Assembly (NCBI GenBank): GCA_028554645.1
Contig: JAQOOI010000079.1
Span: forward strand, 124,001 to 188,000
Direction of reading: 5' to 3'
DNA from: Omphalotus guepiniiformis
Lineage: Eukaryota > Basidiomycota > Agaricomycetes > Agaricales > Omphalotaceae
DNA: 64,000 nucleotides
Under the pieces are notes generated by a model, which saw nothing but the letters and a program-made list of their open reading frames with translations, was not told where the DNA came from and ran no database searches. Positions 18,249 to 54,927 of the stretch are shown piece after piece. Position 1 is the first letter of the stretch. Every line of letters begins with the position of its first letter. A program made the translations under genes and the position numbers.

Positions 18249-18492
18249 CAGCTACACAATATAAAGCAGGAATATGCTGAAGACATGCAAGAGTTATGTT
18301 GATAGGCATTAGAATATCTTCACAGATATGTGCTGCAGGCATGCAAGAGTTATGTTGATAGGCATTAGAATATCTTTATAGACATGCACTGAAGACATGC
18401 AGAAGATACTATGAAAGGCATCAGAATATCTTCACAAAGATGTGCTATAGACATGCTAGAGATATGTTGAAGACATCAGAATATCTTCATCA
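18249..18492 (-). repeat. 55-bp satellite, inverted arm
   Basis: About four to five degenerate units with the core GGCATTAGAATATCTTCA and GACATGCAAGAG, in the opposite orientation to the main array that follows. Confidence 0.85.
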
Positions 18493-28323: not shown

Positions 28324-29864
28324 ATGACAGTGCTGGCAGTTATCTCAACTCTAAAGACGGAGGACAAGCTGGTAACGTCGGTGGCACACGTGGAGCACCC
28401 CGCTCAGTTTAGTCCTCCCCTTCCACATTTGAAGATAGTGAGGAATGGGTTGGCTTGCAAGTCGTGTGACTATTGCGTGCCACAGTTGTCGTCCATGAAG
28501 AAACATCAACTACAGTTCCATGCACTTTACAGGATGATGGACGAGCGAGAGTGTTATTATTCAGGGGAGTTGCAAAACTTCTTCCCAGAGAGACAGAATT
28601 ACTTTCAAGTCGCAGCAAACCTGGCTGCAGATCCCCCTGGAACAATGTTCACAACTTATATGGTGCAAGTCATGAAGTCATTCACAGCTGGCCCGCCAAC
28701 TGTCCTCCCTCCTCAGGGCCCCAAGGAAATCACCCCCTTCCACTGCATGATGGGATGGTACTCCTATCTGGGAGATTACATTGCCTCCAAAAAATCAATT
28801 GAATTGTTAATGCAGCTGAAGGCCCTTCCCAATGTGATGAACGGCTCAACGCTGGGCTTGGGACGTGTGCGTGACGTGACGATGTATTACCTGGACGACA
28901 TTAGGAAACAGGCACAACAATTGTCTTTTGGGGTCAGAAAGACATTGATGGAATTTCCAAGGTGCGGTTTGATGTTTGTATGCTACAGCAATCAGGAGTC
29001 TCACCCATGCATTGATTCTTCCTGTATAGGCAGCCAAATACAACAGCTTGGCGCGTTCATGAGGAAGATGAGACACTGAGGCATTACTCTGTTCCGTTGC
29101 AGGTACTGGTGTGCGCTCTCATCCGGAGTGTGGATCCCATGACCTCGTACGCAGGGTTCACTTTTCTGCTGACTCAGCAGACATATGGGGTAGAGGCGGG
29201 GCATTTGCCTTACATGACGTCTGACGATCTCCAGAAATTCGCAATGATATCAGAGTGCTGGTGGGAGATCTGGGGTTTCCGGGAGGGGTACCCCGCAATG
29301 TTGCCCAGGGTACAACGATGGCGTCTGCGTGGTGCAAGCAGCTCTCATGCTCAAGCACAAGAAGCTTCTGACCAGGAGCGCACAGATGTTGGGTTTCAGT
29401 CAGAGAATGTTGTAGCGCAGCTGGTCGCACACATGACAGACCAGCTGGCCCAAATGGAGCAGCAGATCAACACCCAGACCCAGGCCACCATGATTCAAGT
29501 TTTGAGCGAGGGAATTGCGTCTGGGGCCCTCAACAGGCTTAACATCTCATCCTTATGGCAACGAGGGATTTTGACTACCAATGGAACTAGTGATGTGGCT
29601 TCTTTCTGCCTGCCTGAGGAGGAGAGCTGGGCTGAGGTTCAATACCACCCATCGCTAAAGGATATGACAGCTTTGCTGACATGTATCTACCCTGCTGCTT
29701 CGAAGCCTGAATTCAGAAGTCAGTCTCAACACCAGCTGTGTGAGGCTTCTCTTTTGAACAGGCACAATGTTGTGGCTGTTCTGCCTACGGGTGGGGGGAA
29801 AAGCATTGCTTGCCATGGCTGGCACCTGCCATGGCAAGCGTGGAAAAGGTCACTTTGGTGGTAG
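28324..29864 (+). pseudogene. helicase A, OrsD zinc finger to Walker A (spliced segment)
   Basis: Open from 28324 to 28961, intron 28962-29029 (GTGCGG...TATAG, 68 bp), then open from 29030 to 29864. Splicing joins LMEFPR to QPNTTAW and restores HEEDETLRHYSVPLQ, while the unspliced frame ends in TGA at 29077. The frame leaves homology after GGGKSIA, where TGCCA seems duplicated, so the rest of the ATPase core lies in another frame. Confidence 0.6.
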
Positions 29865-30058
29865 TGCCTCACTGGTCCTTGCTCGCCCATCATTTGGAGG
29901 AGCCCCAGAAACTCGGCATCAAGTGTTTTCAGTGGACCACCGCACACAACAGTGAGCTACCAGCCTGGGTGATCTTGGTCTTTTTGGCAATGGAGTCTTT
30001 CACCAGTGTGGCTTTCGCAACATGAGTCCTGATTACCCTCCTTTTTTTCTGACTAAGG

Positions 30059-30961
30059 ATGGCCAGGCTGTACAAAGTCCAAAAGGATCGCATTGTCAGA
30101 TTGGTGGTGGATGAGATCCATGAGGCCCTCACTGCACTATCCTATCGCGAGGCAGCACTACACCTGCCTAAAATGGCTGAGCTCACAGTGCAGAAAGTGC
30201 TTCTGTCCGCAACGTTGCCGAGGAGCATGCAGCCAGTGCTCGAGAACAGGCTGGGTTTACTTGGGGACCTGCAATACATCCACACCGAAGTTCCTCAGCT
30301 TCATCTCCGCTACCACGTGGTCCAGTTGGAGAGTTGCAGAACGGATATGAACACCTTGGCCCGGGAAGTCATTGGATACCTCAATGCAAAGGTACTCACA
30401 GTGGGGGAACAGGGCATTGTGTTCACCCCACAGAAGGAGGATGCTGAGGAGTTGGGAGTTTTCACCAATGGATGCACACATAGTGACTTGGACAGGGAAA
30501 CAAGAACAGAAATCAAGCGGGCCTGGTTGGAGGGCAAGACACCCTGGATAACAGCGACAACCTGTCTCACACATGGTGTCAACAATTCCCGAGTTGCTGC
30601 CGTCGTCTTTGCTGGTACCTTGTATGGCTTACTCAACTTTCTACAGGGCGCCGGATGTGTGCGCGTTCCCAAAAAGGGGACGGTGATCTTGCTCGCCTTT
30701 TCAGAGGGAAAATCATTGATTAGGGGATGGGATGCTGCGAAGGACCCTGAGTGCACGCACGGCGACAAATTGCTCTTGAGCAGGAACAACGTTTGTCGCC
30801 GGAAAACCATTTCAGGATTGACTGATGGAAAAGAGAAATTGTGTGCGGACTACATGAAAGAAGGATTGGAGACTGAGTTGTGCGATGTATGTGGGGGTCC
30901 ATCAGAGTTGTTGGACGCAATTGAAGAGCTCCTACCAGATATGGGATCTGCATGTATATGA
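30059..30961 (+). pseudogene. helicase A, second RecA-like lobe
   Basis: A 300-codon frame with VVDEIHEAL, VLLSATLP, GIVFTPQKEDAEEL, ATTCLTHGVN and FLQGAGCVRVPKKG, i.e. helicase motifs II to VI in order. It ends with the CDVCGG cysteine pair and a stop after SACI. Confidence 0.6.
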
Positions 30962-31950
30962 CCAGCACATATCCCCTCCACTTCTGCACCAGGAATTTGG
31001 AAGGGGAAGATGAAAGCTGTAGAGTGTGTGCCCACTCCTGAGGAGGACGAGGCAATGTTCAACGCGATGGGACTCAGTGATGACTTCCTTGCTGTGCTTC
31101 CTAGCTGTGTGTTCGAGGGAGGGACCACACTGAGTGATCTCTGAAGCGAGGACACTCCACACCGGCTGGTAGCTTGTCCGATGAGCTCCCCCCCAGCAAA
31201 GCCCCGTGTTTGCAAAGCAACACACCCACTGCTGTCAGGGCACTTGCTCCAGCCTATGTGGCAGGTGCTTCTATCTCCATTTCCATCTCCGCACAGCTCG
31301 ACGCACTTGCAATGCAAAGCATGCAAACCCGCACTGAGATAGCATTCAAGGTGGCAGAAGTAACCAGCAGGTGCTGCATAATCTGTGTCATTCTCCATGG
31401 CACCCTAGTGGCTTCCGGTCAGAAGCATGTAGCTTTCGTGCATTGCAGGCCTCCCAAAATCTTCACGCAGGCTCCATTCGAGTGGTTCAACTTCAAGCGC
31501 GAGCTTAAAGCCAACGTCAACACCATGGAGAACTACTGCAACCAGTATGGCCTGCCCAGATCGCTTTACTGGCGACATCCTGCATTTCCAAAGGGCAATA
31601 GATGCCCTTACAATGATCTGTGTGTGCACACACTGTGGTACATCCGACATGTGACTGCACTGATGGAGGAGGCGGCGCGCCTGCCGGAATTCAAAGAGTT
31701 GCACATGACCATGAGGCAGAAGGATTTTGTAAACTGGTGCAATGCGGCACCCAGAAAGAGTTGACATTACAATGGCTTGGAATTGGTGATTTGGTTTTTT
31801 AGCAGAGAGAGGCTGGACGAGTTCACAGGAGGCCAGAATTAGTAGGCAGCGGCATTTTGGGTGAAGTCAGGGGGAAGTGTCAGGGGGAAGGGAAGGCGCA
31901 CTACTCGCACATGTCCCAGTATTATACCTTTTTTTGTGTGTTAGGTTAGT

Positions 31951-33968: not shown

Positions 33969-34232
33969 TGTTGGGAATCAAGAGCTCCATGTAAACAAGG
34001 CCAATTTAATGGCAGCAATTTGCTTACGGTTAAGTGATCACATAACAAAGTAGGGGAAATGTATTGGCATGAGCTGGGATTGAACCAGCGACACCCAGCA
34101 CACATAACTGGTGCTCTAACCAACTGAGCTATCATGCCATTGGTAGAGTATGGAGGTTAGTCCATCTCGTTATGAGTGGTGTTAACACTCAATGGTGGGA
34201 TTAGCACCAGGTCTTCTATTGCTCATTCAACA
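33969..34232 (-). mobile_element. tRNA-bearing LTR-like element, copy 1 (264 bp)
   Basis: Element-sense ends TGTTGAATGAGC...TTCCCAACA, flanked by AGAAG at 33964-33968 and 34233-34237. The TG...CA ends and exact 5-bp duplication are LTR/integrase marks. A tRNA cloverleaf occupies the middle. There is no second LTR, no open frame and no poly(A) tail. Confidence 0.8.
34065..34138 (-). tRNA. tRNA cloverleaf inside copy 1 (anticodon position TGT, base 33 is A)
   Basis: 7-bp acceptor GGCATGA/TCATGCC, D stem GCTC/GAGC, anticodon stem CCAGT/GCTGG, five-base variable region and T arm GCTGG-TTCAATC-CCAGC all pair. The loop TATGTGT puts TGT at 34-36, but A instead of the universal T at 33, so translation activity is doubtful while the Pol III A and B boxes look intact. 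Confidence 0.7.
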
Positions 34233-34274
34233 AGAAGGTTATATCATCCATTTTACTTAGTCTAGATCTGCCTC

Positions 34275-34672
34275 ACAACTTTTCATCAATAAATGTGAAG
34301 TATCTGTATCCACTAGGAGAATACACACCAACATCATGGAGATCAGAATGAATAAGCCCCAACATATCAGCTCTGGTGTGTGAGTGAAATGGATGTGCAT
34401 GCATCTTGCCAGCCAGACAAGGTTCACATACAGGGTCTGGAAGCCCTCTGCCAAATTATCCCTCAACATGCACAATATAAGTGCCTGTGCCACAGCTTCA
34501 GATTCAGAGGTAGAATTCTTGTCAAACAGAGGCTTTCAGACTTATATATAGTATGTCCATTTAAGTATCCAACATTATTTGCAGTGGGTAGTAAAGAGAA
34601 TAGGACTGTTCTATCAAATTTCATTGTATCAGACCAAATATGTGCATAAAAGCCTTTATGTTTTTCTGGCCT
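34275..34672 (-). pseudogene. copia pol fragment (pre-integrase and integrase start)
   Basis: Collinear with about 52742-53178 of the intact copia element, with several small deletions and frame breaks. It ends at the shared AAAGCCTTTATGTTTT motif. Confidence 0.75.
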
Positions 34673-35669
34673 GGACACAGGATATCAATGAAGGCTGCAA
34701 AAGATTGTGAAGGCAATATTCAACTTCATGGACCACTGTTAAATGTCGCAAGATTACAGCAGCAGTGAATGTCAAAACAATATAGATACAAGCTTGCTGT
34801 CTCATGTTTTGAGGTCTTCAGTGGACACCAATGATTGCAAGCAATGGGCTAGCATCATAGTTGGCCATACAACTAGTCTGCATCTTCACTTTGTGTCCAT
34901 GCTCACAGGCACAATGTGATAAGGCCACATTTGGTAGCTGGGCTTGATCTTCCAGAGGACATCATATTTCTTCTGGGATAACATTGATACTTCAAAGAAT
35001 ACTATTCCTCTGCCACATACAGTCTCTTGAGGGTCTCTCTTCTGCTGAAAATGCTGCTTCGTACCTTGGAAAGGTTCAATATGTCTTGTCAGCTGGGATG
35101 ACTATGCAGTGTATTCAAGCTACTAGGCTGCTTATGGGAGGGTTTTATCTGTAATTCTTGATCAAACTTACCAGTCTGATAACACTTACAAAGGCTGTTG
35201 GACATCATATCTATGTGGACTCTCTGGATCAATAGTAGTGATGTTAGTGATCTTAGTATGTTAGTGATGTTAGTAGTGATGTTAGTGTTGTTGTTGTAAG
35301 TAGTGTTAGTTATTACCTTGCCTGAAAGGTCTCTTCCATTCATTGATTCACACCGGCATTGTTTTTTCCAGAGGTGTCATCACTCCTCTGACCCCCCAGT
35401 ACTATTTACCTTCCTCACAAGTCAGTTTTTGGTGAAAGATTTAGATTATTGGATCACAAGCAAGCTATTAACTATATTGTTCAAGGAAAGAAAGCATGAG
35501 GTCCCAAACAAAACTTTACAAGAGTTGAAAGTGTCCATTATTCATTTTTTACTGCTTCAAAAATTTCCCAAAAAAAAGTAGTTACTGTTGGATAAGCAAT
35601 GGAAGACCTGGTGCTAACCTAGCTAGATTGTAGCAATAAGAGTGTTGGTGGCTTAGCCAGGAAATATAT
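34673..35669. other. about 1-kb segment splitting a copia fragment
   Basis: Lies between two copies of AAAGCCTTTATGTTTT (near 34657 and 35671), as a 16-bp target duplication would appear. It contains a GTTAGTGAT-rich stretch (35235-35310), a block shared with 38660-38850, and a fragment of the tRNA-bearing element at 35587-35620. Confidence 0.5.
35587..35620 (+). mobile_element. 5' fragment of the tRNA-bearing LTR-like element
   Basis: TGTTGGATAAGCAATGGAAG and the following GACCTGGTGCTAACC match the element's first 34 bases with two changes; homology then stops. Confidence 0.65.
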
Positions 35670-35776
35670 CCCTGAAAGCCTTTATGTTTTGTCAGGTACA
35701 GAACAGAAAGCAGATTAGTTTTAAGTGAAGATACATGCAGTACTCTACTACACTCAAAATCCCTAGATACTTTTTT
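35670..35776 (-). pseudogene. copia pol fragment, continuation
   Basis: Matches about 53167-53273 of the intact copia element (SRVLHVxSLKxNLLSVLYLTKHKG). It ends at CCCTAGATACTTTT. Confidence 0.75.
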
Positions 35777-36175
35777 GATGACCAAACTCCTACCTTCTTG
35801 TCCTCTCCTGGTCATTTTCCAAATAGATGACATCCCACAGTCTAGTACTGATCTACAAGCTACGAAACCCCCACTACTATCACTCACTCACGCACACCAG
35901 ACTTCATGTTTGAGTTCCTGTTTGAGTTGGACTTCAAGCCTACCAGTGGGTTAGGGATTATGATGTCACTTTAAAAACCAAAATCATTGGCTTTTTTTTC
36001 ATTGACACCAGGACTGAAGGGCATCAGACACTTTATTTCTCCATGCAATCAACAGTCTACCAAGTATGGATTGTTGTAAGATACATACATATTCCAGCAT
36101 GTGATGACATTAATTTGGTGTGTTCAAGTGCAGTGTCCTATTCCATCCTTGACATATGAATGGTGTTGCCAGTTC

Positions 36176-36917
36176 TCAAAGCCCCAGATGTTGATGAGCA
36201 ACAAACAGGTCATATAGAGCAGCAGATTCCCTATTCACCCCTGCGTCAAGGACACCATAATTGGCCATGCTCATATCTCCGCTATCCTTTATGGTTTTGA
36301 AGATGGAGATCCGTAAGGTAGCCAGCATGCAGTCAATACTTTCATTGAACAGAAGATTTTGCACAACATACGTCTCCAAATCAGTCAGAGCCTCACAAAC
36401 ACCACTGGCTATGTCCTGGAAACAGAGTATTTTCCCAAAAACCTTGATGGCACCATCTTCTGCCACTATCATGAGAACAGGTCTTGTTGTTTTTTTGACT
36501 ATTTTTGTGACTTGGTGCATCCAGGTGATGTTGAACATTTGAGAAGGGTTTCACAGTATTTTCTAGGAGGAATGTCCTGTGAAAATGTCAGAACCAACTG
36601 TGCTGCGTGTTAGCACAGATACATGCTACCAGGCTAGCAGCTGACCTGAATTTGGTCTTGTCCTCTTTTTGACCTTTCACAGCCTGAGCACCAGTTAAAG
36701 CCTTGGCACTGCTCAAAGGCTCAAAGCCACCCTCACTGTCACTGGGGAACTCTGAAAGGCTATAGGCATCCCACCTTGAACACGGATGCAAAGCTCCTCA
36801 AAACACTGATGGAAGCTGGCAAGCTGAATGTAGAACTGCATCTTTGATAGGATAGGGGGAATATCAAAGACATTGGTCAGGCCACCATCTTTCCCATTCA
36901 GCCATATGGCAGCCAAG
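36176..36917 (-). pseudogene. decayed unknown gene, part downstream of element copy 2
   Basis: Minus-strand open pieces such as GGLTNVFDIPPILSKMQFYIQLASF (about 36800-36880) and ALTDLETYVVQNLLFNESIDCMLATLRISIF (36290-36400) look like real protein sequence in shifting frames. The family is not recognised. It seems to continue the coding interrupted by the tRNA-bearing element at 36918-37181. Confidence 0.4.
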
Positions 36918-37181
36918 TGTTGGGAATCAAGAGCTCCAAGTAAACAAGGCCAAATTAATGGCAGCAACTTGCTTACGGTCAAGTGACCACATAACAAAGT
37001 AGGGGAAATGTATTGGCATAAGCTGGGATTGAACCAGCGACACCCAGCACACATAACTGGTGCTCTAACCAACTGAGCTATCATGCCATTGGTAGAGTAT
37101 GGAGGTTAGTCCATCTCACTATGAGTGGTGTTAACACTCAATGGTGGGGTTAGCACCAGGTCTTCTATTGCTCATCCAACA
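36918..37181 (-). mobile_element. tRNA-bearing LTR-like element, copy 2 (264 bp)
   Basis: Element-sense TGTTGGATGAGC...TTCCCAACA, flanked by CCAAG at 36913-36917 and 37182-37186. It has the same length as copy 1 and is inserted into decayed coding sequence. Confidence 0.82.
37014..37087 (-). tRNA. tRNA cloverleaf inside copy 2
   Basis: As in copy 1, with one acceptor change (TTATGCC for TCATGCC, leaving a G-T pair). Loop TATGTGT. Confidence 0.68.
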
Positions 37182-37186
37182 CCAAG

Positions 37187-39694
37187 AACACAGAAAGGGG
37201 AGATTTACATCATCAAGAATAAGGTCATCATAACCCTCTTCATCAGGGAAACAGAGGGCACTGAGGACCACCTCTGGCTGGAATTCCCTACAGCTTAGAT
37301 GCTTTTGTAGCATTGATAGGGATTGCCTCTGATGTTCAGTGAAATAAATCAACTCCTGCTTACCATCCTTGGAGTAAACAGGATAAATCAACTCCTGGCC
37401 ATCCTTGGAGTAAACAGGCCCAAGATAAATTGGGTCTGCAAAGAGTAGTAAAGCGTCCTGGGTGTAGGCAGCACTGAGAGGGTGAATATGCGGGCTGCCT
37501 ATGAGAGCATCCAAGAAGGGTATCAATACCTTATTAGCAGTAGAGTGAAGAGATGACCTACATGCTGACTGTGCTCATCAGTATTAGCTGCACACTGGGA
37601 TGTACCCTCAATACTGCCTTGCAGTCAGCATCTAATAAGCACTTCAATTCCTTCTTTCTCCTTTGCCTAGGAATTTGAAAGGCATGAAATACCTGTTTAG
37701 GATTAAAGGAGGTGAGGAAAGAAATGGGTAATTTCTTGGCCCTGATTGTCAGAGCAAGCAAGGGAAGCCATTTCTCTTCCCGTTTGCGGAGAATATCACT
37801 GCTGGTTATATCAGAAGGTTCAGCCCCTTGTTTTGGCTTTGATTTTGAGCCTGAACACTGCTTAACAGGCTGGGTTACCTCATAGAAGTTTGTCAGATGT
37901 GTGTGGAACTCCGAAAAGATTGTACTGTGAAATACAAATCCTCTTTATTGGAGTGCTTGGGGCATTTATAATGCCGCAAGAAATTATATGTGCTTTGCAG
38001 GCCCAGCCAGGCTGAATGTGAATGCCATTCACAGGCTCTCCTGAATTATCTGTAGAGAATTTGGATTCCAAACTCTGGTTGCTGGTGTTGGCACCAACAC
38101 TCAACTGATCGACTGAGCAAGCCCCACTGCAGCATGCCAGGGCTTGCCTCCAAAATTCAACAGCCTGGTTTTGGACCGTGTCTGAGGTCCATCCTGGGGC
38201 GTTGTCAGCGGCTGGCTTCCAGCTCCACCTGCAGGAGAGTTGGGGGCTGGCTCAGACCACCGGAGCTGGGTGGGAACTCAGTGGTGTTGTCTCTGAAGTG
38301 GGTACTCCTGGTTGGTCCTGGCTTCCCTGCCCATGTGTATCCCTGCCACCACTGCGTTCTCCAGCAACGAGTATTGATCCACAAATCCCTGAAGGCCTTG
38401 GCTACTGCGACAGCTTCAGGCCAGTAGGGCCTCTGCTGTCTTGGAGCTGGTCAAAGTCAAGGTGGTTGCGAGTACAGTTCAGTATTTGGTCATACTTCAT
38501 TGGCCAGTCATGGTCCTCCAAATTGTGCATTGTATTGACCAGGAAGGCGGATGGTGTCACATGGGACACCACAGGAGAGAGAGGGTGCCCCATGGGTATC
38601 AAGGAAGCAGTAGATAGAAAGCAGTAGATACTCATGTGCCTTATGTGCTGTTTATCCTGGTGATCAGAGATAGTAGTGATGTTAGTTAGTGTGGTTGTTG
38701 TAAGTAGTGTTAAGTAGTGTTAAGTGTTAGTTATTACCTTGCCTGCGAGGTCTCAAGCAAAACTTTACAAGATTCCCAATTGCACTTTTTGAGTTGAAAG
38801 TGTTCATCATTCATTTTCTACTGCGTCAAAAATTTTCCGAAAAATATTTATTGACTGTGATTCTTCAATCACTATAGTACACGTTACAGGTTACATGATG
38901 TGGATTGTGATAGAACACGTCTCTATGACTATTACAATGATTACCTCCCCAAACTTCTTGACCATGATGACACACTCATTTGAATCTTTGACAACAGTGT
39001 CTTTCCCACTGCTGCCTTCAACTTTGATCCACAAACAGAGACCATCCCCACATCAACTACGCAAACCTTCCTTCTGGCCTGTGCTTCATCTGGGCGCTAG
39101 GTAGTTGAAAAGCAGCTGAGGTGTGTGATTGGGTAAAACCTGGTTGGCTAGCCTCAACATCATGACCTCCTGCTCAAAGTTCTCATCTGTAGTGAGCTTG
39201 CCCACTATCCTAGCTATTATACTGAGTGCCACAATCTTTGAGGCTTCATTGACCACAACAATAAACTGCAGTCTCAGCACAAAAAGAGGCAGCCTGGGGA
39301 AAGCAACAGGAGCTGCCTGACCAGCTTCATAGGAGTGCATTTGGAAGGTTCAACCTTCTGCAGCAGAAAAGTGGGAAAGAAAGGAAGAGATGAAATTAAG
39401 GTCGTGTTGACCACAGTGGAGCCAGCTCTTTCTCTGAAGCCCTAGGGTCTTCAAACACTTCTCTTTATATACATGGTATCTCTGCTGCTTGAGGTCTTCC
39501 AATGCATCAAGAAGCAAGAACAGCATGTACTCCACGTAATCAAACTGTGAGGCAGACTGATACCAGGACAGCTCTCTCTCATTGTTTTTCAAAAAGATGA
39601 GACAGTTTTTGTCCAGATATACTCCAAAACCGGCTCCAGACTGGTGCATCTGTGCTGCTATCTGTAGGAGACAAGACTGGGATGTTAAACACAA
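37187..39694 (-). pseudogene. decayed unknown gene(s), minus strand
   Basis: A chain of minus-strand open pieces in different frames: 39694-39350 (AQMHQSGAGFGVYLDKNCLIF), 39340-39086 (FVVVNEASKIVALSIIARIVG type helix), 38635-38402, 38104-37880, 37761-37558 and 37526-37187 (HQRQSLSMLQKHLSCREF, then FPDEEGYDDLILDDVNLPF). They look like one or two long, broken genes with introns. I find no motif naming a family. Confidence 0.4.
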
Positions 39695-41960
39695 GTAGTG
39701 ATGTATTCATATCTAGTCACACTTCACTCTGAGTCAGCCCCCCACCCCCAAATACAACTTGAACACCGCAAAGGATATCTACTGCCTGGACTGTGAGAAA
39801 TGGTTCAACATCACGGAATTAGAGGCAAGTGAAAACCGGGTATTTACAGCTTCGGAAGTTGAGGGGTTGGGGGCAGGGGTGAAAGCCCACAGGTCCATAT
39901 GGTCCTGATATCTTGAGTTACTCATGGCTATCCTCAGGAAGCCTATGCCTCAGAGAGATGGTGATGAGCTGCCAGATGGGTCAGCCTGGCCAGTCTTGAC
40001 TTGTGCCTGGGCTCCTGGCAGCCTTCTCCTCAATGATACAAGAGTCACATCCAATGTGACTTCTTGTTTCAATGTCGTCACCTCTGTCCTTGAGAGTTGG
40101 GTCTGTCCAGATTGCAGGAGTGATATCTAGTGACACTTTGTAGATATCTTCACATAGTACATCGACAATTACATTATTTTTTTTCCATCTTATCAATCAC
40201 CCAATATAAAGTTGGGCACACCTTTTTTTGAATCAGTATTGATAGTGGCAGTCAGTTATGGTGATTCAAGGACTGATGCAAGCACCAATTCAGAGGATCA
40301 GAATTGTGTGTCAAACCGTGTGAAGTATGTATCGAGAATGAGAACTGTATCAAGTTAGTATTGGGACTTAGCATATCCCAAATTTACCTAGATAGTTGCT
40401 AGTATTCACTTTACCGGATCTACCATGATGGAGAATGGTGTTCGACTAGACAAGGTCGCAAGGTGGGCTAGTATCTCCAGAGAGTGGCATGACAGCACTT
40501 TCACAGAGAAAGAAAAAGAGGAGGGGAAGCACAACTTCAACCATCTATCACAGGAACTATGAACCAGCCCTTACCAATAAGTTTTAGCAAGAAACCTGTG
40601 TTGAAGAATGGATGCTCTCTGAACATTATGATGTCATTGATGCTGTCACTGTACTTGGTAGGTTCCAATTGTGCACACCTCACTAATCATCTAGCAAACA
40701 GATTTTGCAAGAGCACATTTGTTTGAGAATGACCACCCTTGCACACCGATTGCCAGTTTGTCTGGCAGGATCTAATAACAGACTCTATGGCCAAAGGTGC
40801 TGTAGAGACTGAGCATGTGAGGTTGGAACTTGCATTGAAGCATAATCAGTCAAGGTCTACAAGAGCTAAGGGAAGGCAGTACACTGCACATCTCAAGAAA
40901 AACTAGTTAGATTAAAGCAACACAGAGTTTATAGATTGTGCTGTAAGGTCCTTAAACTGTGAGTGAATATCTCCTGATGTAGCTCAACATTCCAAATGCA
41001 CTACAATAATGGTTTGTGGAGATCACCTGAACAGTGGTGTTGGTGGATAGTAATAACTATATAGCAATGTCAGTGTGAATCATACTTATAGTTCATTTAA
41101 ATTACCTCTATGTCAGACTGGTATCATTTACCAAAACCCACTTGTGAAATTCTTCAATATGGGTCATAGTTGATGGGATTCTGTTTTGAACCCATAGCAG
41201 AACTGATCCCATTGACTAATCTTTCTATTTAGCTACTGACCCCTCCTCAAAGTAATGTGATATCAGTAGTTACCCTGTTTTCAATTCAGTAGAGCCTTTC
41301 CATAGCTCAGGATTGGCTTTTGCTAGCTTTGAGGTTTCTAGGCATGTTCTGAAAACAACTGTTTTGTTTGACCACATAGACATAAACATGTATATACCCA
41401 GAATAATGATTGCTCATGGGAACACCAGAAAGATGCATCTTCTGGATCCATCAAAGTGTTCTGTTCAGAGGCCTCTAGCATAGCCTCTAATATGTTGACT
41501 TCATGCTGTATTATATCTTTTATAGTGGTATCTGGTGGATGAGTAGACTGCCATTTGAATTAAATCAGCACTGGGTGGTTTTGAGTGACACTTGAGTTGA
41601 ATCTGAATAGCATAATGTTGTAAGATCCTATGTCTGAGAAAATAAAATATTTTCTTCAGATTGCTAATAGCAATCAGACCAATTCCTCCACTCAGCCTTC
41701 ATTGAAGGAGAATCTAATTAATCCCATTTGACACTTCAAAAAGACCAAAAATCTTTGTGCTACAGATGAAGGGCATGTCAGGCTGCATGGACAGTGCTTC
41801 ACACTCCATAAGAGTGGATTATTTATTTTTTTGCAATGAAGGTTGTCAACACGTGCATTGAATGCTCAATGCCTATAAACTTTTTTTCTCACCAACAGAG
41901 TTAATCCAGCTCAGTAGGAGGAAGGTGGACAATCTTTTAACAGAAGATGTTGGAAACTTA
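39695..41960. other. spacer without supported features
   Basis: No open frame, LTR, tRNA or tandem repeat that I can support. Confidence 0.4.
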
Positions 41961-41964
41961 TCCA

Positions 41965-42225
41965 TGTAGCTGTATATGTATCTAATTTCTTTCATGCAGT
42001 ATAGCTAAGTGTGTGCAACTCATTCTTTCCTTCCATGAGGGAAAGTTTCTGTGAATCACTGTAAGTAGCTGTATGTTGATGTACATGCATCCAATTTCTT
42101 TCATGCAGTATAGCTAAGTGTGTGCAACTCATTCTGTCCTTCCACGAGGGAAAGTTTCTGTGTATAACTGTAGGTAGCTGTATATCAATGTACGTGCATC
42201 CAATTTCTTTCATATATCAATGTTT
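41965..42225 (+). repeat. 100-109-bp tandem repeat
   Basis: Two and a half units, starting GTAGCTGTAT at 41965, 42065 and 42174, each with AATTTCTTTCATGCAGTATA and GAGGGAAAGTTTCTGTG. Confidence 0.85.
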
Positions 42226-42236
42226 ATAGAAGCATG

Positions 42237-42720
42237 TGTAAGAATCTAAGACAATGCACTACCAGTGATACACAGATCAGACACAATGAATAGAGTTCAA
42301 TTACAGTTCACTGAGGTCACTAAAGCATTGTAATAGTAGCTTAATGTGCAAGAATTGCTGTCCAAGTGTCTTAGATTTCTCCAGACATGTAAGGATTTAC
42401 ATATTGTTTGGTCCTGTTGTGTCAGGCCACGCATGAGGCGTGAAAATGAGTGTCCACTTTGTGCGTGCTCTAAACACTCCAGAATGACCCTACATACATG
42501 GTATAACTATCTACAATAGGTATTAAAGTCATTACTATAGTATTATATGTACTTGAAGGACTTTCTAATGATATGTACAGTATTTGTATAGTATCTACAA
42601 GTGTTCTAGCACTTCATTCAACACAGCCCCCTGATAGAACACTTGTGTAATGGAGGTGCTCTATTGATGAAGTGTGTCATCACATATCCCTCAACCTCTT
42701 CACTTTCCTCACCTTCTTCA
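42237..42720 (-). mobile_element. copia LTR with a 97-nt extension (copy A)
   Basis: A 387-bp copia LTR (42237-42623) followed by exactly 97 nt of the copia 3' internal region (42624-42720). It ends at CTTCTTCA, the same point as copy B at 57513. The flanks do not show a 5-bp duplication (GCATG versus CTCTA), so one side may have been rearranged. Confidence 0.75.
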
Positions 42721-42951
42721 CTCTATTCATCCCCTACTGTAGTTCTCTATCTATCTGTAGTTTCCTATCCATCCCCTACTGTGTTTATCCATCCAGCCCC
42801 TATCCCAAATTTTGATTCAGCCCCTACCCAGACCCTAAGTATCTTATCCCTAAGTTGTTGGGAATCAAGAGCTCCATGTAAACAAGGCCAAATTAATGGC
42901 AGCAACTTGCTTACGGTCAAGTGACCACATAACAAAGTAGGGGAAATATGT

Positions 42952-43026
42952 TGGCATGAGCTGGGATTGAACCAGCGACTCCCAGCACAACATAACTGGT
43001 GCTCTAACCAACTGAGCTATCATGCC
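42952..43026 (-). tRNA. tRNA cloverleaf inside copy 3
   Basis: Same stems as copy 1. One extra T makes the anticodon loop eight bases (TATGTTGT). Confidence 0.6.
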
Positions 43027-43048
43027 ATTGGTAGAGTATGGAGGTTAG

Positions 43049-43438
43049 TGTTAGAATCTAAGACAATGCACTACCAGTGATACACTGATCAGACACAATG
43101 AATAGAGTTCAATTACAGTTCACTGAGATCACTAAAGCGTTGTAATAGTAGCTTAATGCACAAGAATTGCTTTCCAAGTGTCTTAGATTTCTCCAGACAT
43201 GTAAGGATTTACATATTGTTTGGTCCTGTTGTGTCAGGCCGCGCATGAGGCGTGAAAATGAGTGTCCACATTTTCGCGCGCGCTCTAAACACTCCAGAAT
43301 GACCCTACATACATGGTATAACTATCTACAATAGGTATTAAAGTCATTAGTATAGTATTATATGTACTTGAAGGACTTTCTAATGATATGTACAGTATTT
43401 GTATAGTATCTACAAGTGTTCTAGCACTTCATTCAACA
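43049..43438 (-). mobile_element. copia solo LTR, 390 bp
   Basis: TGTTAGAATC...TTCAACA, matching the intact copia LTRs over their length with very few differences. Flanked by GTTAG at 43044-43048 and 43439-43443. It is the product of LTR-LTR recombination. Confidence 0.92.
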
Positions 43439-43520
43439 GTTAGTCCATCTCGCTATGAGTGGTGTTAACACTCAATGGTGGGGTTAGCACCAGGTCTTCT
43501 ATTGCTCATCCAACATAAGT

Positions 43521-44175
43521 GCTCATAAGCAAGACTTCCATTGTGTGTCGCAAGCTGACCTGTTTTGATCTCTCCTGAAATGGCTGGGTGAGGAGGAGGT
43601 GCCTAAGTTGTTGAATTGGCTGTTCTCCAAGTTGGCAGGGAGGGGCAACTGCTTCGTCTGAAAGCTAAGTCCTCTGGAGGGAAGTGGATATCCTACTTTG
43701 AAGGGAATGTTGGATGAGCTGAGGGACAACCACCTCATAAGCATGGTGGGCAACCGTGCGGGTGCAGGTCCTGGTCGCTGAAGGCGCTGGAGGCCTGGAA
43801 GAGTAAGGGATGGCTGGCAATCTAGACCACAGACCAGCAACCAGCACAGATAATGATGGATATGGCCACCAGAGGCCAGACGGCGCCTGGGTGCATAGCC
43901 ACATATCCAGCTGAGGGGATATGAAATTTTTTTTTGTAAAATATTTGCTATCACTGTATGGTCTAACAATAGAGCATCCTTTCCATTTTTCTTCTTTGTT
44001 TGATGCACCATCCTGAGGTTTGAGAGGTAGCAGTGGAATGGGAGTTGATGTTTGAGTTCCAGTTTGAGTTTGAGTTGGAGTTGGAGTTGGAGGTGGAGTT
44101 GGAGTTGGAGGTGGAGTTGAATTTCACAATTGCTTGCAACCAGCACACTGTATTGATCTCGCAACTTTATGATTG
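43521..44175. other. spacer with a GTTGGA hexanucleotide microsatellite
   Basis: A GAGTTGGAGTTGGAGGTGGA-type repeat lies at 44035-44120. Open frames over it on the minus strand are low complexity and probably not coding. Confidence 0.5.
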
Positions 44176-44180
44176 GTTTG

Positions 44181-44394
44181 TGTTGGATGAGCAATAGAAG
44201 ACCTGTTGCTAATCCCACCATTGAGGCATGATAGCTCAGTTGGTTAGAGCACCAGTTATGTGTGCTGGGTGTTGCTGGTTCAATCCCGGCTCATGCCAAT
44301 ACATTTCCCCTACTTTGTTATGTGGTCACTTGACCGTAAGCAAGTTGCTGCCATTAATTTGGCCTTGTTTACATGGAGCTCTTGATTCCCAACA
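44181..44394 (+). mobile_element. tRNA-bearing LTR-like element, copy 4 (214 bp, internal deletion)
   Basis: TGTTGGATGAGCAATAG...TTCCCAACA flanked by GTTTG at 44176-44180 and 44395-44399. It lacks about 50 bp between CCATTGAG and the tRNA start, but keeps both ends and the cloverleaf. Confidence 0.82.
44225..44298 (+). tRNA. tRNA cloverleaf inside copy 4
   Basis: All stems conserved; changes are GTGTT in the variable region and CCGGC in the T stem (a G-T pair). Loop TATGTGT. Confidence 0.7.
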
Positions 44395-45489: not shown

Positions 45490-46311
45490 GTGCAAGCCTG
45501 TTGGTACACCCATGGATCCAGGAGCTGCTCTGTCAACTGCATAGTGTCCAAAGACTGCTGAAGGAAAGGAAGAGATGGCCAAAATCCCATATATTAGTGC
45601 TGTTGGCTCCTTGTTGTATCTTGCTACTACCAGGCGTCCTGACATTGCATACACAGCTAGTGTATTGGCACAATTCAATTTAAATCCTGGCATGGCTCAC
45701 TGGGTTGCAGTAAAGCATGCATTTAGATATCTGAAGGGAACAATGGACATGAAGCTTGAATATGGTCCTGATCCCTGCCAGCCAGACCCCTAGGCTGAAG
45801 AAGTGCATCATCAGGGGGCTGTGAAGAAGTTGAGGAAAGTGAAGAGGTTGAGGGATATGTGATGACACACTTCATCAATAGAGCACCTCCATTACACAAG
45901 TGTTCTATCAGGGGGCTGTGTTGAATGAAGTGCTAGAACACTTGTAGATACTATACAAATACTGTACATATCATTAGAAAGTCCCTCAAGTACATATAAT
46001 ACTATAGTAATGACTTGAATACCTATTGTAGATAGTTATACCATGTATGTAGGGTCATTCTGAAGTGTTTAGAGTGCACGCAAAAATGTGGACACTCATT
46101 ATTTTCACACCTCATGCGTGGCCTAACACAATAGGACCAAACAATATGTAAATCCTTACATGTCTGGAAAAATCTAAGATACTTGGAAAGCAATTCTTGT
46201 GCATTAAGCTACTATTACAACACTTTAGTGATCTCAGTGAACTGTAATTGAACTCTATTCATTGTGTCTGATCAGTGTATCACTGGTAGTGCATTGTCTT
46301 AGATTCTAACA
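45490..46311 (+). mobile_element. internally deleted copia remnant with 3' LTR
   Basis: Pol residues from PVGTPMDPGAA to GPDPCQPD (45490-45790; in-frame TAG at about 45540) are fused directly to the 3' untranslated end of the element (45791-45918), then a 393-bp LTR (45919-46311). The RNase H C-terminal half is deleted, with the junction at CAGACCCCTAGG. Confidence 0.85.
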
Positions 46312-46555
46312 GAAACTCCACCATAGTACAGAATATGGATTTCTTGGGAAATTTTCAAATGACTGAGCAAGACAGTAATTTAAATGTGCAAGTCATTTGG
46401 AAATATGAATTGCATAAAAGACTTGAGCCTGGAGTGCTAGTGTACAATGTGTGCTTGCAGAGAGAGAATCAGGGAAGGATACCACTGAAACAGTTCATAA
46501 AACCAGTGCAAGAACATTAAGTCACTCAAAGACTTGCCTCTTTTTTCAGACAGTC

Positions 46556-49612: not shown

Positions 49613-49617
49613 GTTTT

Positions 49618-50007
49618 TGTTAGAATCTAAGACAATGCACTACCAGTGATACACTGATCAGACACAATGAATAGAGTTCAATTACAGTTCACTGAGATCA
49701 CTAAAGCGTTGTAATAGTAGCTTAATGCACAAGAATTGCTTTCCAAGTGTCTTAGATTTCTCCAGACATGTAAGGATTTACATATTGTTTGGTCCTGTTG
49801 TGTCAGGCCGCGCATGAGGCGTGAAAATGAGGGTCCACATTTTCGCGCGCGCTCTAAACACTCCAGAATGACCCTACATACATGGTATAACTATCTACAA
49901 TAGGTATTAAAGTCATTAGTATAGTATTATATGTACTTGAAGGACTTTCTAATGATATGTACAGTATTTGTATAGTATCTACAAGTGTTCTAGCACTTCA
50001 TTCAACA
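49618..50007 (-). repeat. copia 3' LTR
   Basis: 390 bp. Element-sense ends TGTTGAATGA...GATTCTAACA. Contains a CGCGCGCG core. Confidence 0.95.
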
Positions 50008-50016
50008 CAGCCCCCT
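50008..50016 (-). promoter_or_regulatory. copia polypurine tract 1
   Basis: Element-sense AGGGGGCTG directly before the LTR start TGTTGAAT; the normal plus-strand primer position. Confidence 0.75.
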
Positions 50017-50104
50017 GATAGAACACTTGTGTAATGGAGGTGCTCTATTGATGAAGTGTGTCATCACATATCCCTCAACCTCTGCACTTTCCTCAACTTC
50101 TTCA

Positions 50105-50113
50105 CAGCCCCCT
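50105..50113 (-). promoter_or_regulatory. copia polypurine tract 2 (duplicate, 97 nt upstream)
   Basis: Element-sense ATCAGGGGGCTG followed by TGAAGAAG, repeating the tract-plus-TG layout of tract 1. Two other insertions in the window begin exactly at this TGAAGAAG. Confidence 0.7.
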
Positions 50114-50132
50114 GATGATGCACTTCTTCAAC

Positions 50133-53100
50133 CTAGGGGTTCTGTATTATGTGCAATCCCATCATCTCCCTCAACTTCTCCACCTTGGGCTTACTGAGAG
50201 GCTTGGTGAGCAAATCAGCTGCATTCTCATCAGTAGGTAGATATTCAGGAGCCATGACCTTGTATTCAACTTGGTCTCTCAGCCAGTAGTAATGCCGGTC
50301 AAGATGCTTCATCCTCCCATGATGCTCAGGATTCTTAGCAACCTTGATTGTGGATTGATTGTCCATTAGCAACCTGGCTGGCTGAGGTGTCTGGTATCCC
50401 AAATCTTGTAACAGGCTGTTCATGGCACAAATCTCCTTGCCAGCAGCAACACCTGCCACATATTCTGCCTCTGTAGAGGAGAGTGTTACAAAGGGCTGTA
50501 GCTTACTGCTCCAACTAACCACACCTGATCCTAGTTTGACCATATACCCACTAGTGGACTTTGAGTTGTCCCTGTTACCACCAAAGTCTGCATCACAGTA
50601 TGTAACAAATAGATCTGGCTGGCAGGGATCAGGACCATATTCAAGCTTCATGTCCATTGTTCCCTTCAGATATCTGAATGCATGTTTTACTGCAACCCAG
50701 TGTGCCATGCCAGGATTTGAATTGAACCGTGCCAATACACTAGCTGTGTATGCAATATCAGGACGGCTGGTGGTAGCAAGATACAACAAGGAGCCAACAG
50801 CACTAATATATGGAATTCTGGCCATCTCTTCCTTTCCTTCAGCAGTCTTTGGACACTGTGCAGTTGACAGAGCAGCTCCTGGATCCATGGGTGTACCAAC
50901 AGGTCTACAATCAGACATTCCAAACTCATTAAGTTTGTTGACAATATATTGTTTCTGACCCATATACAATTTTCTCTCCTTTCTATTTCTTGTGATTTCT
51001 ATTCCCAGCAGATATGATGTAGGACCCAGGTCACGGAGTTTGAAGTGCTTTGCTAGCTCTGCCACAAAGTGGTCCAAAGATGCCTCTGACTTGGAAGCAA
51101 GAGTGATGTCATCCACAAAGACAGGTACAAAAACCTTAATGTCATCTTTCTGATAGACATATAGGTTTGGATCAGATTGGGTGCGACTAAAGCCCATTGA
51201 TTGTAACACTCCTGCAAGCTTCTCACCCCAAAGTCTGGGTGACTGCTTTAACCCATACAGGGACTTGTTCAGCCTGCAGACAAATCTAGGACCACGCTCC
51301 TTGAACCCTTCTGGCTGTGTCATGAAGATCTCTGTATCAATGTCACTATTGATGAATGCATGAGAGATATCCACAGAGCGCAAATGCAAGTCCTCAATGG
51401 CAGCCAGAGCAAGAATAGTGCGGATTGTAGTCTGTCTCATAGTAGATGAGAATGTCTCTAGATAGTCAAAGCCAGGTCTTTGGCTGAATCCTTTGGCAAC
51501 AAGTCTAGCCTTGAACCTTTCAATGGATCCATCAGCCTTGTGCTTTATCTTGAATACCCATTTAGATCCAATTGCTCTCTTATCTGGTGGAAGTTCCACA
51601 ACATCCCAAGTGCCATTGGTGAGGTGTGCATTCATTTCCTCCATCATGGCCTCCTGCCACTGTCTGGCATTAGGTCCTTCCATAGCCTGCTTGAATGTCA
51701 ATGGCTCTGGACCATTGTCAGTCATGGTGTGGGCTTCCTCCATATTATCATCATCATCTGGCACATCTGCATCCTTGTTTCGCTTGGGAGCAGGGAGGTT
51801 CACTTTCCACCATTCACCAGGAGCCTGTCTCTTCCGCTCAGACCTACGGAAAGCAATTGGTCTATTATCTACAAGGACATCCTCAGGTGGTTCAATCTGT
51901 TCCTCCTCTGCAGAACTATCATTGTCATCAGCAGGTTCATTATTCTGCTCAGGGCCAGTATTGTCTTGTTCTGTAGAGGACTCATGGTCAGGTTCAGGTA
52001 ATGCAGGGTCATCTGACTCAGAGTCAGAGTCAGAGTGAGGATTATCATCAAGAGGAACATAGGACGTATTGGGTGGTGTACTAGTTGAAGGTTTGGAAGG
52101 TGAAGGTTTGGAAGGTGGTTGTGAAGATCCAACTTTATAAGTGTACCTCTCATCAAAGTCAGCTCTCTCACTGATCACAACCTTCTTGGTGACAGGATTC
52201 CAAAACCTCCATCCCTTCACACCATCTGGATACCCAATGAAGATACACTTTTCCATATGAGAACCCAAGTGTTTCCTCTTATCCTTCTGAACATGCACAT
52301 ATGCAACACAACCCCAGACCCTCAGATGATCCACCTTTGGTTTCCTCTTGTACCATCCCTCATAGGGAGTGCAGTTTGGTACAGCAGATGTAGGGCAACG
52401 ATTCCACACATGAACAAGTGCAGCCAGGCACTCTACCCAAAATGACTTTGGTAAACCAGACTCTTCTAGCATTGCAACAATCCTTTCCTCCATCACTCTA
52501 TTTGCTCTTTCAGCAACACCATTCTGTTGAGGCCTATTTCTGACAGTGTATTGACGCTCTATTCCACAGCTGTCCAGAAATGCAATGAACTCCTTTGATA
52601 TGTACTCTCCACCTTTATCACATCTAAAGATTTTGATTTTCTCTCCAGTGGTGTTCTCAGCCCAAGCTTTGTACTTCTTGAATGCATCAAATGCATCACT
52701 CTTCTTCTTCAGAGGAAGTGCTGCACGGAAACGCCACTTGTCATCAATGAATGTGATCCAGTATCTGTATCCACTAGGAGAATGTACACCAACATCATGG
52801 AGATCAGAATGAATGAGGCCCAACACAGTATCAGCTCTGGTGTGTGAGGAATGAAATGGATGTGCATGCATCTTGCCAGCCAGACAAGGTTCACAAACAG
52901 GATCTGGCTTTGCATTAGAGTCTAGTTTCAAGCCCTCTGCCAAATTATCCCTCAACATGCGCAATATATCATCGTGCCCATGATGACAGAAGCGCCTGTG
53001 CCACAGCTTCAGATCCAGAGGTAGAGTTGTTGTCAAACAGAGGCTTTCAGACTTATCTATAGTATGTCCATTCAAGTATCCCACATTATTTGCAGTAACA

Positions 53101-54278
53101 CGCGCAGTAAAAAGAATAGGACCATTTCTATCAAATTCCATTCTATCAGACCAAATATGTACATGAAAGCCTTTATGTTTTGTTAAGTACAGAACAGAAA
53201 GCAGATTATTTTTAAGTGAAGGTACATGCAGTACTCTACTAAATTCAACATCCCTAGATACTTTTCCATCAATGATTGGTCTAAACACAACATTTCCTAC
53301 ACCTTCAGAATATATAATTCTATCATCAGCCAATTTAATAGGTACTCTATAGGGGGTATAATTCCTAATCCAATGGCGATGTGGTGTCATATGAGAAGTG
53401 GCCCCCGTGTCTGTATTCCAATCAAGTATGTCAGAAGATGAAGTATCATTAGAAGAGAATGTACTTGCACTGCCAGCACTTTCAACAACATCTTCCTCTT
53501 TCACTTCAGCCTTATTGGCCTGATATCTCCCATTCCCACTCTTTCCTTCATTCCTTGCTTTCAAGGTGGGACATTCAGCCTTCCAATGCCCTTCCTTCTT
53601 GCAGTAATGACAGAACCCCTTCTTCCAATTAGGCTTGATATAGCCTTGTGCTTTGGCAGCAGCATTGGCCTTGTTAACCTGCTCTGCCTGTCTTTTCAGA
53701 TTTTGTTCTTCAGCAATGAAGTACTGAAGAATCTTGTCCTTGTCCAATGTGTCCAATAGCAGCAAGTTTGCAGTGAGGTTAGATTCTGGGGGCAATGCAC
53801 GGACTAAGGCCAAAGCCTGCAGCTCTGCATCAAGTTTCTCCAAGGTATATTCCTTGTCTCTGAGATTCCTAATGGTGAAGACTGCATTTTCAATCCTTGT
53901 CCCCAGATCAACTAAACTCTCATCCTCCTCCTTTGTGATGCTGAACAGAGCATCATAGGCATTGAAGCGTGCACCTGGTGTCCTGGACACATGCACTCTT
54001 TCTAGAGCTGACCACATGCCAACAGGATCACCACCAGCAAGATAGGACTTGACATGAACCTTCTGATCTTGTTCCAGAGAAAGGTAAATGTCACCAGCAG
54101 CTTTACTGGCTTTAATCTCCCAATTGGCCAGAGGTGAGCCTTCAGTAGGCTTTGACTCTGCACCAGAGACCAATCTCCAATAGCCCATACGCATCAACCA
54201 AGCCATCATATCTCCACTCCATTCAGGATAGTTGGAGTTATTGAGAGGTTTAAATTTTGGTGTGTCTGAAGAAGACAT
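50133..54278 (-). CDS. copia Gag-Pol polyprotein
   Basis: One frame of 1381 codons in copia order. Gag includes NYPEWSGDMMAWL near the N-terminus; CCHC knuckle C223-C226-H231-C236; aspartic protease DTGA at 290-293; pre-integrase His/Cys group around 427-465 (LWHRRFCHHGH...CEPC); integrase catalytic D492, D554 and E590 (D-35-E); an acidic and Ser/Pro-rich linker at about 715-800; reverse transcriptase at about 890-1110 with RLVAKGFSQRPG and FVDD at 1054-1057 (the copia form of YxDD); RNase H from TYCDADFGG (about 1227) through LSSTEAEY (about 1268). Start ATG at 54278 and a TAG-type stop near 50133. All catalytic residues are present and no frameshift is needed. Such single-frame elements usually regulate the Gag:Pol ratio by splicing or protein turnover. 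Confidence 0.95.
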   Translation of the reverse strand: MSSSDTPKFKPLNNSNYPEWSGDMMAWLMRMGYWRLVSGAESKPTEGSPLANWEIKASKAAGDIYLSLEQDQKVHVKSYLAGGDPVGMWSALERVHVSRTPGARFNAYDALFSITKEEDESLVDLGTRIENAVFTIRNLRDKEYTLEKLDAELQALALVRALPPESNLTANLLLLDTLDKDKILQYFIAEEQNLKRQAEQVNKANAAAKAQGYIKPNWKKGFCHYCKKEGHWKAECPTLKARNEGKSGNGRYQANKAEVKEEDVVESAGSASTFSSNDTSSSDILDWNTDTGATSHMTPHRHWIRNYTPYRVPIKLADDRIIYSEGVGNVVFRPIIDGKVSRDVEFSRVLHVPSLKNNLLSVLYLTKHKGFHVHIWSDRMEFDRNGPILFTARVTANNVGYLNGHTIDKSESLCLTTTLPLDLKLWHRRFCHHGHDDILRMLRDNLAEGLKLDSNAKPDPVCEPCLAGKMHAHPFHSSHTRADTVLGLIHSDLHDVGVHSPSGYRYWITFIDDKWRFRAALPLKKKSDAFDAFKKYKAWAENTTGEKIKIFRCDKGGEYISKEFIAFLDSCGIERQYTVRNRPQQNGVAERANRVMEERIVAMLEESGLPKSFWVECLAALVHVWNRCPTSAVPNCTPYEGWYKRKPKVDHLRVWGCVAYVHVQKDKRKHLGSHMEKCIFIGYPDGVKGWRFWNPVTKKVVISERADFDERYTYKVGSSQPPSKPSPSKPSTSTPPNTSYVPLDDNPHSDSDSESDDPALPEPDHESSTEQDNTGPEQNNEPADDNDSSAEEEQIEPPEDVLVDNRPIAFRRSERKRQAPGEWWKVNLPAPKRNKDADVPDDDDNMEEAHTMTDNGPEPLTFKQAMEGPNARQWQEAMMEEMNAHLTNGTWDVVELPPDKRAIGSKWVFKIKHKADGSIERFKARLVAKGFSQRPGFDYLETFSSTMRQTTIRTILALAAIEDLHLRSVDISHAFINSDIDTEIFMTQPEGFKERGPRFVCRLNKSLYGLKQSPRLWGEKLAGVLQSMGFSRTQSDPNLYVYQKDDIKVFVPVFVDDITLASKSEASLDHFVAELAKHFKLRDLGPTSYLLGIEITRNRKERKLYMGQKQYIVNKLNEFGMSDCRPVGTPMDPGAALSTAQCPKTAEGKEEMARIPYISAVGSLLYLATTSRPDIAYTASVLARFNSNPGMAHWVAVKHAFRYLKGTMDMKLEYGPDPCQPDLFVTYCDADFGGNRDNSKSTSGYMVKLGSGVVSWSSKLQPFVTLSSTEAEYVAGVAAGKEICAMNSLLQDLGYQTPQPARLLMDNQSTIKVAKNPEHHGRMKHLDRHYYWLRDQVEYKVMAPEYLPTDENAADLLTKPLSKPKVEKLREMMGLHIIQNP

Positions 54279-54525
54279 AATTGTGAAGGAAGAATGAATG
54301 TGTTTGTGTGAATGTGTTCCAATAACCCAAGTGATTGTGTCCAGTCAATTAATGAACTGGTAACAATGAATGACAGTAAATGCCACAAATCCAATAGAGC
54401 CAACAATATTTTGTACAGTCAATAGATTGACTTGTAAGGGGTTTCAATAATTGACAATAAATGTCACAGAGCCAACAATAGCAATTGAGCAAGATCAATC
54501 AGTTCTGTTCAAGTTTTAAAGGCCG

Positions 54526-54537
54526 GGGCCCATAACC
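54526..54537 (-). promoter_or_regulatory. copia primer-binding site, half-tRNA type
   Basis: Element-sense GGTTATGGGCCC directly follows the 5' LTR. It is complementary to the anticodon arm of eukaryotic initiator tRNA-Met (GGGCCCAUAACC), as in Drosophila copia, where a cleaved half-tRNA primes. Confidence 0.7.
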
Positions 54538-54927
54538 TGTTAGAATCTAAGACAATGCACTACCAGTGATACACTGATCAGACACAATGAATAGAGTTCA
54601 ATTACAGTTCACTGAGATCACTAAAGCGTTGTAATAGTAGCTTAATGCACAAGAATTGCTTTCCAAGTGTCTTAGATTTCTCCAGACATGTAAGGATTTA
54701 CATATTGTTTGGTCCTGTTGTGTCAGGCCGCGCATGAGGCGTGAAAATGAGGGTCCACATTTTCGCGCGCGCTCTAAACACTCCAGAATGACCCTACATA
54801 CATGGTATAACTATCTACAATAGGTATTAAAGTCATTAGTATAGTATTATATGTACTTGAAGGACTTTCTAATGATATGTACAGTATTTGTATAGTATCT
54901 ACAAGTGTTCTAGCACTTCATTCAACA
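54538..54927 (-). repeat. copia 5' LTR
   Basis: 390 bp, identical by eye to 49618-50007. Confidence 0.95.

Follow-up and report, generated by a model that had tools for sequence, protein, structure and literature searches.

Introduction

The closest described relatives of the element reported here are the Helenus retrotransposons, terminal-repeat retrotransposons in miniature (TRIMs) that bear a tRNA-like sequence in their long terminal repeats (LTRs), are known also from fungi and have been compared with Cassandra of plants (Kojima, 2024; PMC10886601). In that study, helpers were linked to TRIMs by the similarity of their primer sites and once by internal sequence, and transcription of Helenus by RNA polymerase III (Pol III) was proposed and stands unproven. 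We analyzed a stretch of 64,000 nucleotides from the mushroom-forming fungus Omphalotus guepiniiformis (assembly GCA_028554645.1, contig JAQOOI010000079.1, positions 124,001 to 188,000), hereafter the window, which contains four copies of a short repeat, termed Helenus-1, and a Copia retrotransposon, termed Copia A. Within the literature on Helenus TRIM retrotransposons and TRIMp3, only the work of Kojima (2024) was relevant.

Cassandra resembles Helenus-1 in being a TRIM with the sequence of a Pol III gene in its LTR (PMC10886601), but the LTR of Cassandra carries 5S rRNA and that of Helenus-1 a tRNA. Rfam reported no 5S rRNA at gathering score between positions 33800 and 44700 of the window, and only the tRNA family RF00005. 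The sequence-only reading of the window had taken the repeats for a small LTR element that bears a tRNA, likened it to Cassandra as a fungal counterpart, and could not tell whether the element already had a name. It does: it is of the kind named Helenus by Kojima (2024; PMC10886601). The design of a tRNA inside an LTR is thus already published and is not a discovery. The part that looks new is the near-exclusive co-clustering of a Helenus family with one Copia lineage.

Results

The window contains four solo LTRs of Helenus-1

The four repeat units and related features of the window are as follows, with each target-site duplication (TSD) given where it was found:

33969..34232, minus strand: Helenus-1 solo LTR copy 1 (264 bp), TSD AGAAG
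34065..34138, minus strand: tRNA-like sequence of copy 1, with box A and box B
35586..35619, plus strand: 34-nt piece from the start of the Helenus-1 LTR, 94% identity
36918..37181, minus strand: Helenus-1 solo LTR copy 2 (264 bp), TSD CCAAG
37014..37087, minus strand: tRNA-like sequence of copy 2
42856..43515, minus strand: Helenus-1 solo LTR copy 3, interrupted by the Copia A solo LTR listed below, TSD TAAGT
42952..43026, minus strand: tRNA-like sequence of copy 3, with one additional anticodon-loop base
43049..43438, minus strand: Copia A solo LTR (390 bp) within copy 3, own TSD GTTAG
44181..44394, plus strand: Helenus-1 solo LTR copy 4, TSD GTTTG
44225..44298, plus strand: tRNA-like sequence of copy 4

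All four units proposed from the sequence alone proved to be real, with the ends TGTTG...CAACA and an exact 5-bp duplication on both sides of each. Other copies in the genome reach 97% identity to copy 1 over 264 bp, which excludes chance as the origin of the window units. The cloverleaf seen in each unit was recovered by ARAGORN in 4/4, as Thr(TGT) in three copies and His(ATG) in one, and by Rfam with RF00005 scores of 54.9-58.3 bits (cut-off 29). The strand of the tRNA is the sense strand of the element, which is minus for copies 1-3 and plus for copy 4, which has a deletion of about 50 bp on the upstream side of the tRNA.

Nine full-length elements identify Helenus-1 as a TRIM

We searched the genome from which the window derives (42.5 Mb, 80 contigs) with Helenus-1 and scored the best 40 of 59 first-look candidates, so that further copies elsewhere are possible. 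The search gave at least 52 matching rows, which merged into at least 41 loci on 16 contigs. Eighteen of the rows form nine pairs of 264-bp LTRs in direct repeat with 56 bp between them, each element thus measuring 584 bp. The sequence-only reading had predicted direct pairs of this kind, enclosing a short internal domain that bears a primer site and a polypurine tract, and both sequences are present in all nine elements. The primer-binding site TGGTAGCAGT directly follows the 5' LTR (9/9), where the sense strand of the internal domain starts with TGGTAGCAGTAATTTG, or TGGTAGCAGTTATTTG in one copy. In the one copy tested, 16/16 nt of this site pair with the 3' end of the genome's initiator tRNA (tRNA-iMet) plus CCA, by 14 Watson-Crick and two G-U pairs. 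The internal domain ends in the G-rich tract TTGGGGGGCTG (9/9), with CT separating the G run from the LTR, as in Copia A. ARAGORN detected a tRNA in both LTRs of all nine; box B was seen in both LTRs and box A at least in the 5' LTR. The two LTRs of an element are identical in seven cases and differ at one site in two, and the full-length copies share 97.3-100% identity. The near-identical LTR pairs demonstrate that Helenus-1 moved recently.

These nine paired-LTR elements with primer site and tract are decisive against an origin as a short interspersed nuclear element (SINE) or a DNA element. A tRNA-derived SINE moved by a long interspersed nuclear element would account for a short repeat with tRNA-like A and B boxes, and a DNA transposon or miniature inverted-repeat transposable element with a captured tRNA would account for a short, non-coding unit with a TSD of fixed length. 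The former is contradicted by duplications of 5 bp only, by TG...CA ends, by the absence of an A-tail and by the direct LTR pairs, so that this reading was dropped once the nine pairs appeared and now has practically no probability left. The latter was dropped on the same paired-LTR form, the pairs being direct rather than inverted and containing primer site and tract, and we regard it as extremely improbable. We therefore conclude with high confidence that the window repeats are solo LTRs left by a Helenus-type TRIM of 584 bp, a miniature LTR retrotransposon without coding sequence.

The resemblance to the published Helenus elements is close. Like those, Helenus-1 has a tRNA-like sequence in both LTRs, A and B boxes, a primer site, a tract, 5-bp duplications and solo LTRs (PMC10886601); all five structural traits, namely paired LTRs, tRNA-like LTR, primer site, tract and 5-bp TSD, were found here. 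Some fungal Helenus families likewise use the 3' end of tRNA-iMet as primer, some have tRNA-Thr-like or tRNA-His-like sequences, and the 584 bp of Helenus-1 fall into the reported size range of 311-1263 bp (PMC10886601). Its internal domain measures 56 bp, where the same paper remarks on one of 85 bp as short. Helenus-1 belongs to this already named kind, as judged from the published description.

Besides the full-length elements, of which 8/9 have an exact 5-bp TSD, we surveyed 20 further LTR matches, leaving out nine truncated or short rows of the 52. An exact 5-bp TSD was present in 12/20, and the check for duplications of variable length found no match of another length (3-11 bp) among the 20. 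Variable TSD lengths were likewise not seen in the nine full-length elements. Three sets of rows share their flanks (L004/L037/L040, L035/L038 and L036/L039), and each set is probably a single insertion seen in several contigs. For the copy at C27:70612, which lacks a TSD, we considered end-to-end co-integration with the neighboring Copia A and rejected it: the far flank is interior Copia LTR and no common duplication surrounds the pair.

The tRNA-like sequence and possible transcription by Pol III

Box A and box B were recognized by their consensus forms; in the Helenus-1 LTR they read TAGCTCAGTTGG and GGTTCAATCCC, respectively. Ordinary tRNAs are expected to have U at position 33 of the anticodon loop. 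The Rfam alignments show A at this position in copies 1, 2 and 4 of the window and one extra loop base in copy 3. The absence of U33 makes an ordinary decoding role unlikely, and these window sequences appear to be tRNA-like rather than ordinary tRNA-Thr genes.

The sequence-only reading had also noted that no run of four T follows the tRNA and had taken this as a sign of read-through by Pol III. The observation itself extends to all nine full-length elements, none of which has TTTT on the sense strand. As proof of read-through it had to be downgraded, because 233/2000 dinucleotide shuffles of the 320-nt unit are likewise free of TTTT, which makes its absence weak evidence.

Copia A, the candidate helper

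The window also contains a full-length Copia A element:

49618..54927, minus strand: full-length Copia A, with 390-bp LTRs at 54538-54927 and 49618-50007, TSD AAAAC
50133..54278, minus strand: open Copia polyprotein of 1381 aa (gag, integrase, RVT_2)
54524..54537, minus strand: primer site of Copia A, complementary over 14 nt to the tRNA-iMet anticodon arm

The best Copia protein matches reach up to 63% identity, and named sources among the 120 matches listed include Sparassis, Mycena, Agrocybe, Meripilus, Phanerochaete and Sanghuangporus, all of which we take to be agaricomycetes. As for Helenus-1, the duplications of Copia A are 5 bp long. The two elements have in common 13 nt spanning the tract and the LTR start, GGGGGCTGTGTTG (two overlapping 12-mers), and have inserted into each other: one Copia A LTR lies inside Helenus-1 copy 3 of the window and the Helenus copy L002 inside a Copia LTR.

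The anticodon-arm primer site matched the genome 49 times with at most one mismatch; the reversed pattern gave 0 matches. While 24/49 matches lie within 50 kb of Helenus-1, 25/49 are outside the clusters described below, so that other Copia lineages probably use the same site.

Inverted or diverged pieces of Copia A also occur at 45497-46316 (compared with 49613-50903), 42237-42621 and 57612-57999, in what looks like a nested or rearranged array.

Helenus-1 and Copia A share their clusters

The two elements are found almost exclusively in the same places. Of the Copia A pieces, 27/31 reverse transcriptase (RT) matches (11/42 rows shorter than 370 bp dropped) and 38/40 LTRs (best 40 of 152 candidates scored; 9/49 partial rows dropped) have a Helenus-1 locus within 50 kb. 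By the same measure, only 4/53 other Copia RT loci are near Helenus-1, the 53 remaining from 99 Copia RT rows after removal of Copia A, merging of pieces and dropping of one weak row; a recount that included this row, with 33 Copia A rows and 66 other rows, gave 4/54. The Gypsy chromovirus of the window is near Helenus-1 in 1/40 cases (best 40 of 91 candidates scored). As few other Copia and Gypsy elements lie in the clusters, these do not simply collect retrotransposons of every kind. The difference between Copia A and other Copia elements gives p = 1e-13 in the Fisher test, where loci in one cluster are not independent.

Conversely, 39/41 Helenus-1 loci are within 50 kb of counted Copia A pieces. 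The loci on contigs C35 and C51 have no counted Copia A piece within this distance, and C35 holds a 40-aa Copia A piece (L078) outside the count. Copia A pieces away from Helenus-1 are located on C57 (two), C74 and C68. Single linkage at 100 kb yielded 19 clusters on 19 contigs, one on each, three of which consist of a single member; on some large contigs (C17, C22 and C63) the scored copies form no cluster. The GC fraction was 0.424 in 10 sampled cluster loci (0.394-0.456) versus 0.474 in 14 loci elsewhere (0.456-0.503), both being small, non-random samples.

A second Helenus family outside the clusters

A search of the genome with the primer site revealed another, dispersed Helenus family, which has 175-bp LTRs, a 119-bp internal domain and a tRNA-Pro(GGG)-like part:

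C14:382444-382912: full-length element
C14:508084-508552: full-length element
C22:205972-206440: full-length element
C78:1719478-1719946: full-length element
C42:96903-97076: ninth LTR match of the family, single, 93% identity

Its primer site for the 3' end of tRNA-iMet is TGGTAGCAGCAA and its tract ATGGGGGTG. All four full-length elements have TSDs (CAGAG, CAGAG, CTTTT and GCAAC), and their LTR pairs differ at 0, 1, 0 and 0 sites.

Two genome searches with primer sites found no autonomous element with an iMet-3' site, where a site following a gap would be missed. Exact matches (13/13 in the first search and 4/4 in the second) all belong to the two Helenus families. With at most one mismatch, the first search gave 37 matches against 61 for the reversed-pattern control, and 17/37 were inspected; the second gave 14 outside Helenus against 13 for the control, with the 14 left uninspected.

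Discussion

How could an element of 584 bp without coding capacity move? We propose that the internal A and B boxes would direct Pol III to a start site shortly before the tRNA-like part in the 5' LTR, and that the transcript would extend across the internal domain and the 3' LTR. Even a transcript with its end in the flanking DNA could be used: no terminator would be needed in the LTR because reverse transcription requires only the second R copy. The Helenus RNA would then be packaged by Copia proteins, and full-length tRNA-iMet would bind the primer site and start reverse transcription. The resulting cDNA could be inserted by the integrase of Copia A, which has the same LTR start, tract and landing sites, and LTR-LTR recombination would leave the solo LTRs of the window. 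We consider transcription of Helenus-1 by Pol III from its internal boxes quite probable, and Copia A is likely to be the helper that mobilizes it, a case built on the common landing sites and the identity over tract and LTR start.

Several observations weigh against parts of this picture. An exact TSD is missing in 1/9 full-length elements and 8/20 further LTR matches; such LTR matches include some with truncated or altered ends and some, L028, L035 and L038, with ends that look intact. The primer sites differ, as Helenus-1 uses the 3' end of tRNA-iMet and Copia A its anticodon arm, and the primer-site similarity on which Kojima relied therefore does not link the two. In the second Helenus family, which likewise has an iMet-3' site, 0/5 loci are within 50 kb of Helenus-1, and TTTT directly follows the tRNA-like part. 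Finally, over 38 LTR copies the variable sites number 0/12 in box A, 1/11 in box B and 43/241 elsewhere, and this low variation of the boxes (1/23 vs 43/241) is not significant (p = 0.14).

The unlike primer sites could mean that the helper is another LTR retrotransposon with an iMet-3' site, and that the common clusters reflect survival in gene-poor DNA instead of targeting by the same integrase. A Puccinia Copia using the iMet 3' end has been reported (Kojima, 2024; PMC10886601). In the present genome, all exact primer-site matches fall into Helenus families and those with one mismatch (17/37 of the first search inspected) stay at the level of the reversed control, while other Copia elements and the Gypsy chromovirus do not gather in the clusters at the counts given above; we hold this explanation to be unlikely. 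Regarding transcription, Pol II might start from the LTR, with the tRNA-like part as a relic or in another role, for example in RNA packaging. The non-significant conservation of the boxes and the TTTT of the second family would suit Pol II. Two distinct LTR families of one genome, both with a tRNA-like sequence in sense orientation, speak for Pol III instead, as does, weakly, the lack of TTTT in all nine Helenus-1 elements, and the Pol II alternative appears rather improbable.

If Copia A is the helper, a TRIM and its helper need not have a common primer site, as the same tRNA would serve at another position. The second Helenus family provides an internal contrast in the same genome. Restriction to clusters together with a Copia partner of the same clusters, as seen for Helenus-1, is not described in the passages of PMC10886601 compared here. 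The repeats also have a practical consequence, since LTR copies enter the tRNA gene counts of such genomes, a warning also given by Kojima (PMC10886601).

Related patterns are known from centromeres. GlCEN427, a Copia element of Ganoderma leucocontextum with a 427-bp LTR, was reported exclusively from the predicted centromeres of the chromosomes, at 1-8 copies on each (PMC10817607), and the term TRIM appears nowhere in the main text of that paper. The pattern of Copia A resembles this distribution. In einkorn wheat, RLG_Cereba and RLG_Quinta are autonomous and non-autonomous partners in the same centromeres, with common LTR, primer-site and tract motifs; the non-autonomous partner contributes GAG, and the abstract mentions no Pol III sequence (PMC11302176). 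These wheat partners have primer-site motifs in common, unlike Helenus-1 and Copia A.

A doubtful extension is that the one-per-contig clusters are centromeres, that Copia A targets centromeres, that Helenus-1 hijacks the Copia A integrase and that the second Helenus family uses a different helper. The pair would then be a fungal counterpart of Cereba and Quinta with a Pol III promoter in addition; the wheat code RLG denotes Gypsy elements, not Copia. If this is true, the centromeres of a mushroom-forming fungus would receive tRNA-like Pol III promoters from a miniature element that is itself driven by Pol III; these promoters could affect centromeric chromatin or its boundaries, and the landing site would be set by the helper rather than by the tRNA.

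Other features of the window

Large arrays of degenerate 30-bp repeats occur in both orientations at 3300-7700 and 13880-18300, with 123 copies in the largest reported family, and another array, of roughly 55-bp period, lies at 18489-19982. The Gypsy chromovirus at 8114-12930 has a chromodomain and a separate gag frame, and its genome copies are dispersed. Adjoining open reading frames at 28324-31764 give weak OrsD and Helicase_C matches and are possibly a remnant of a mobile element.

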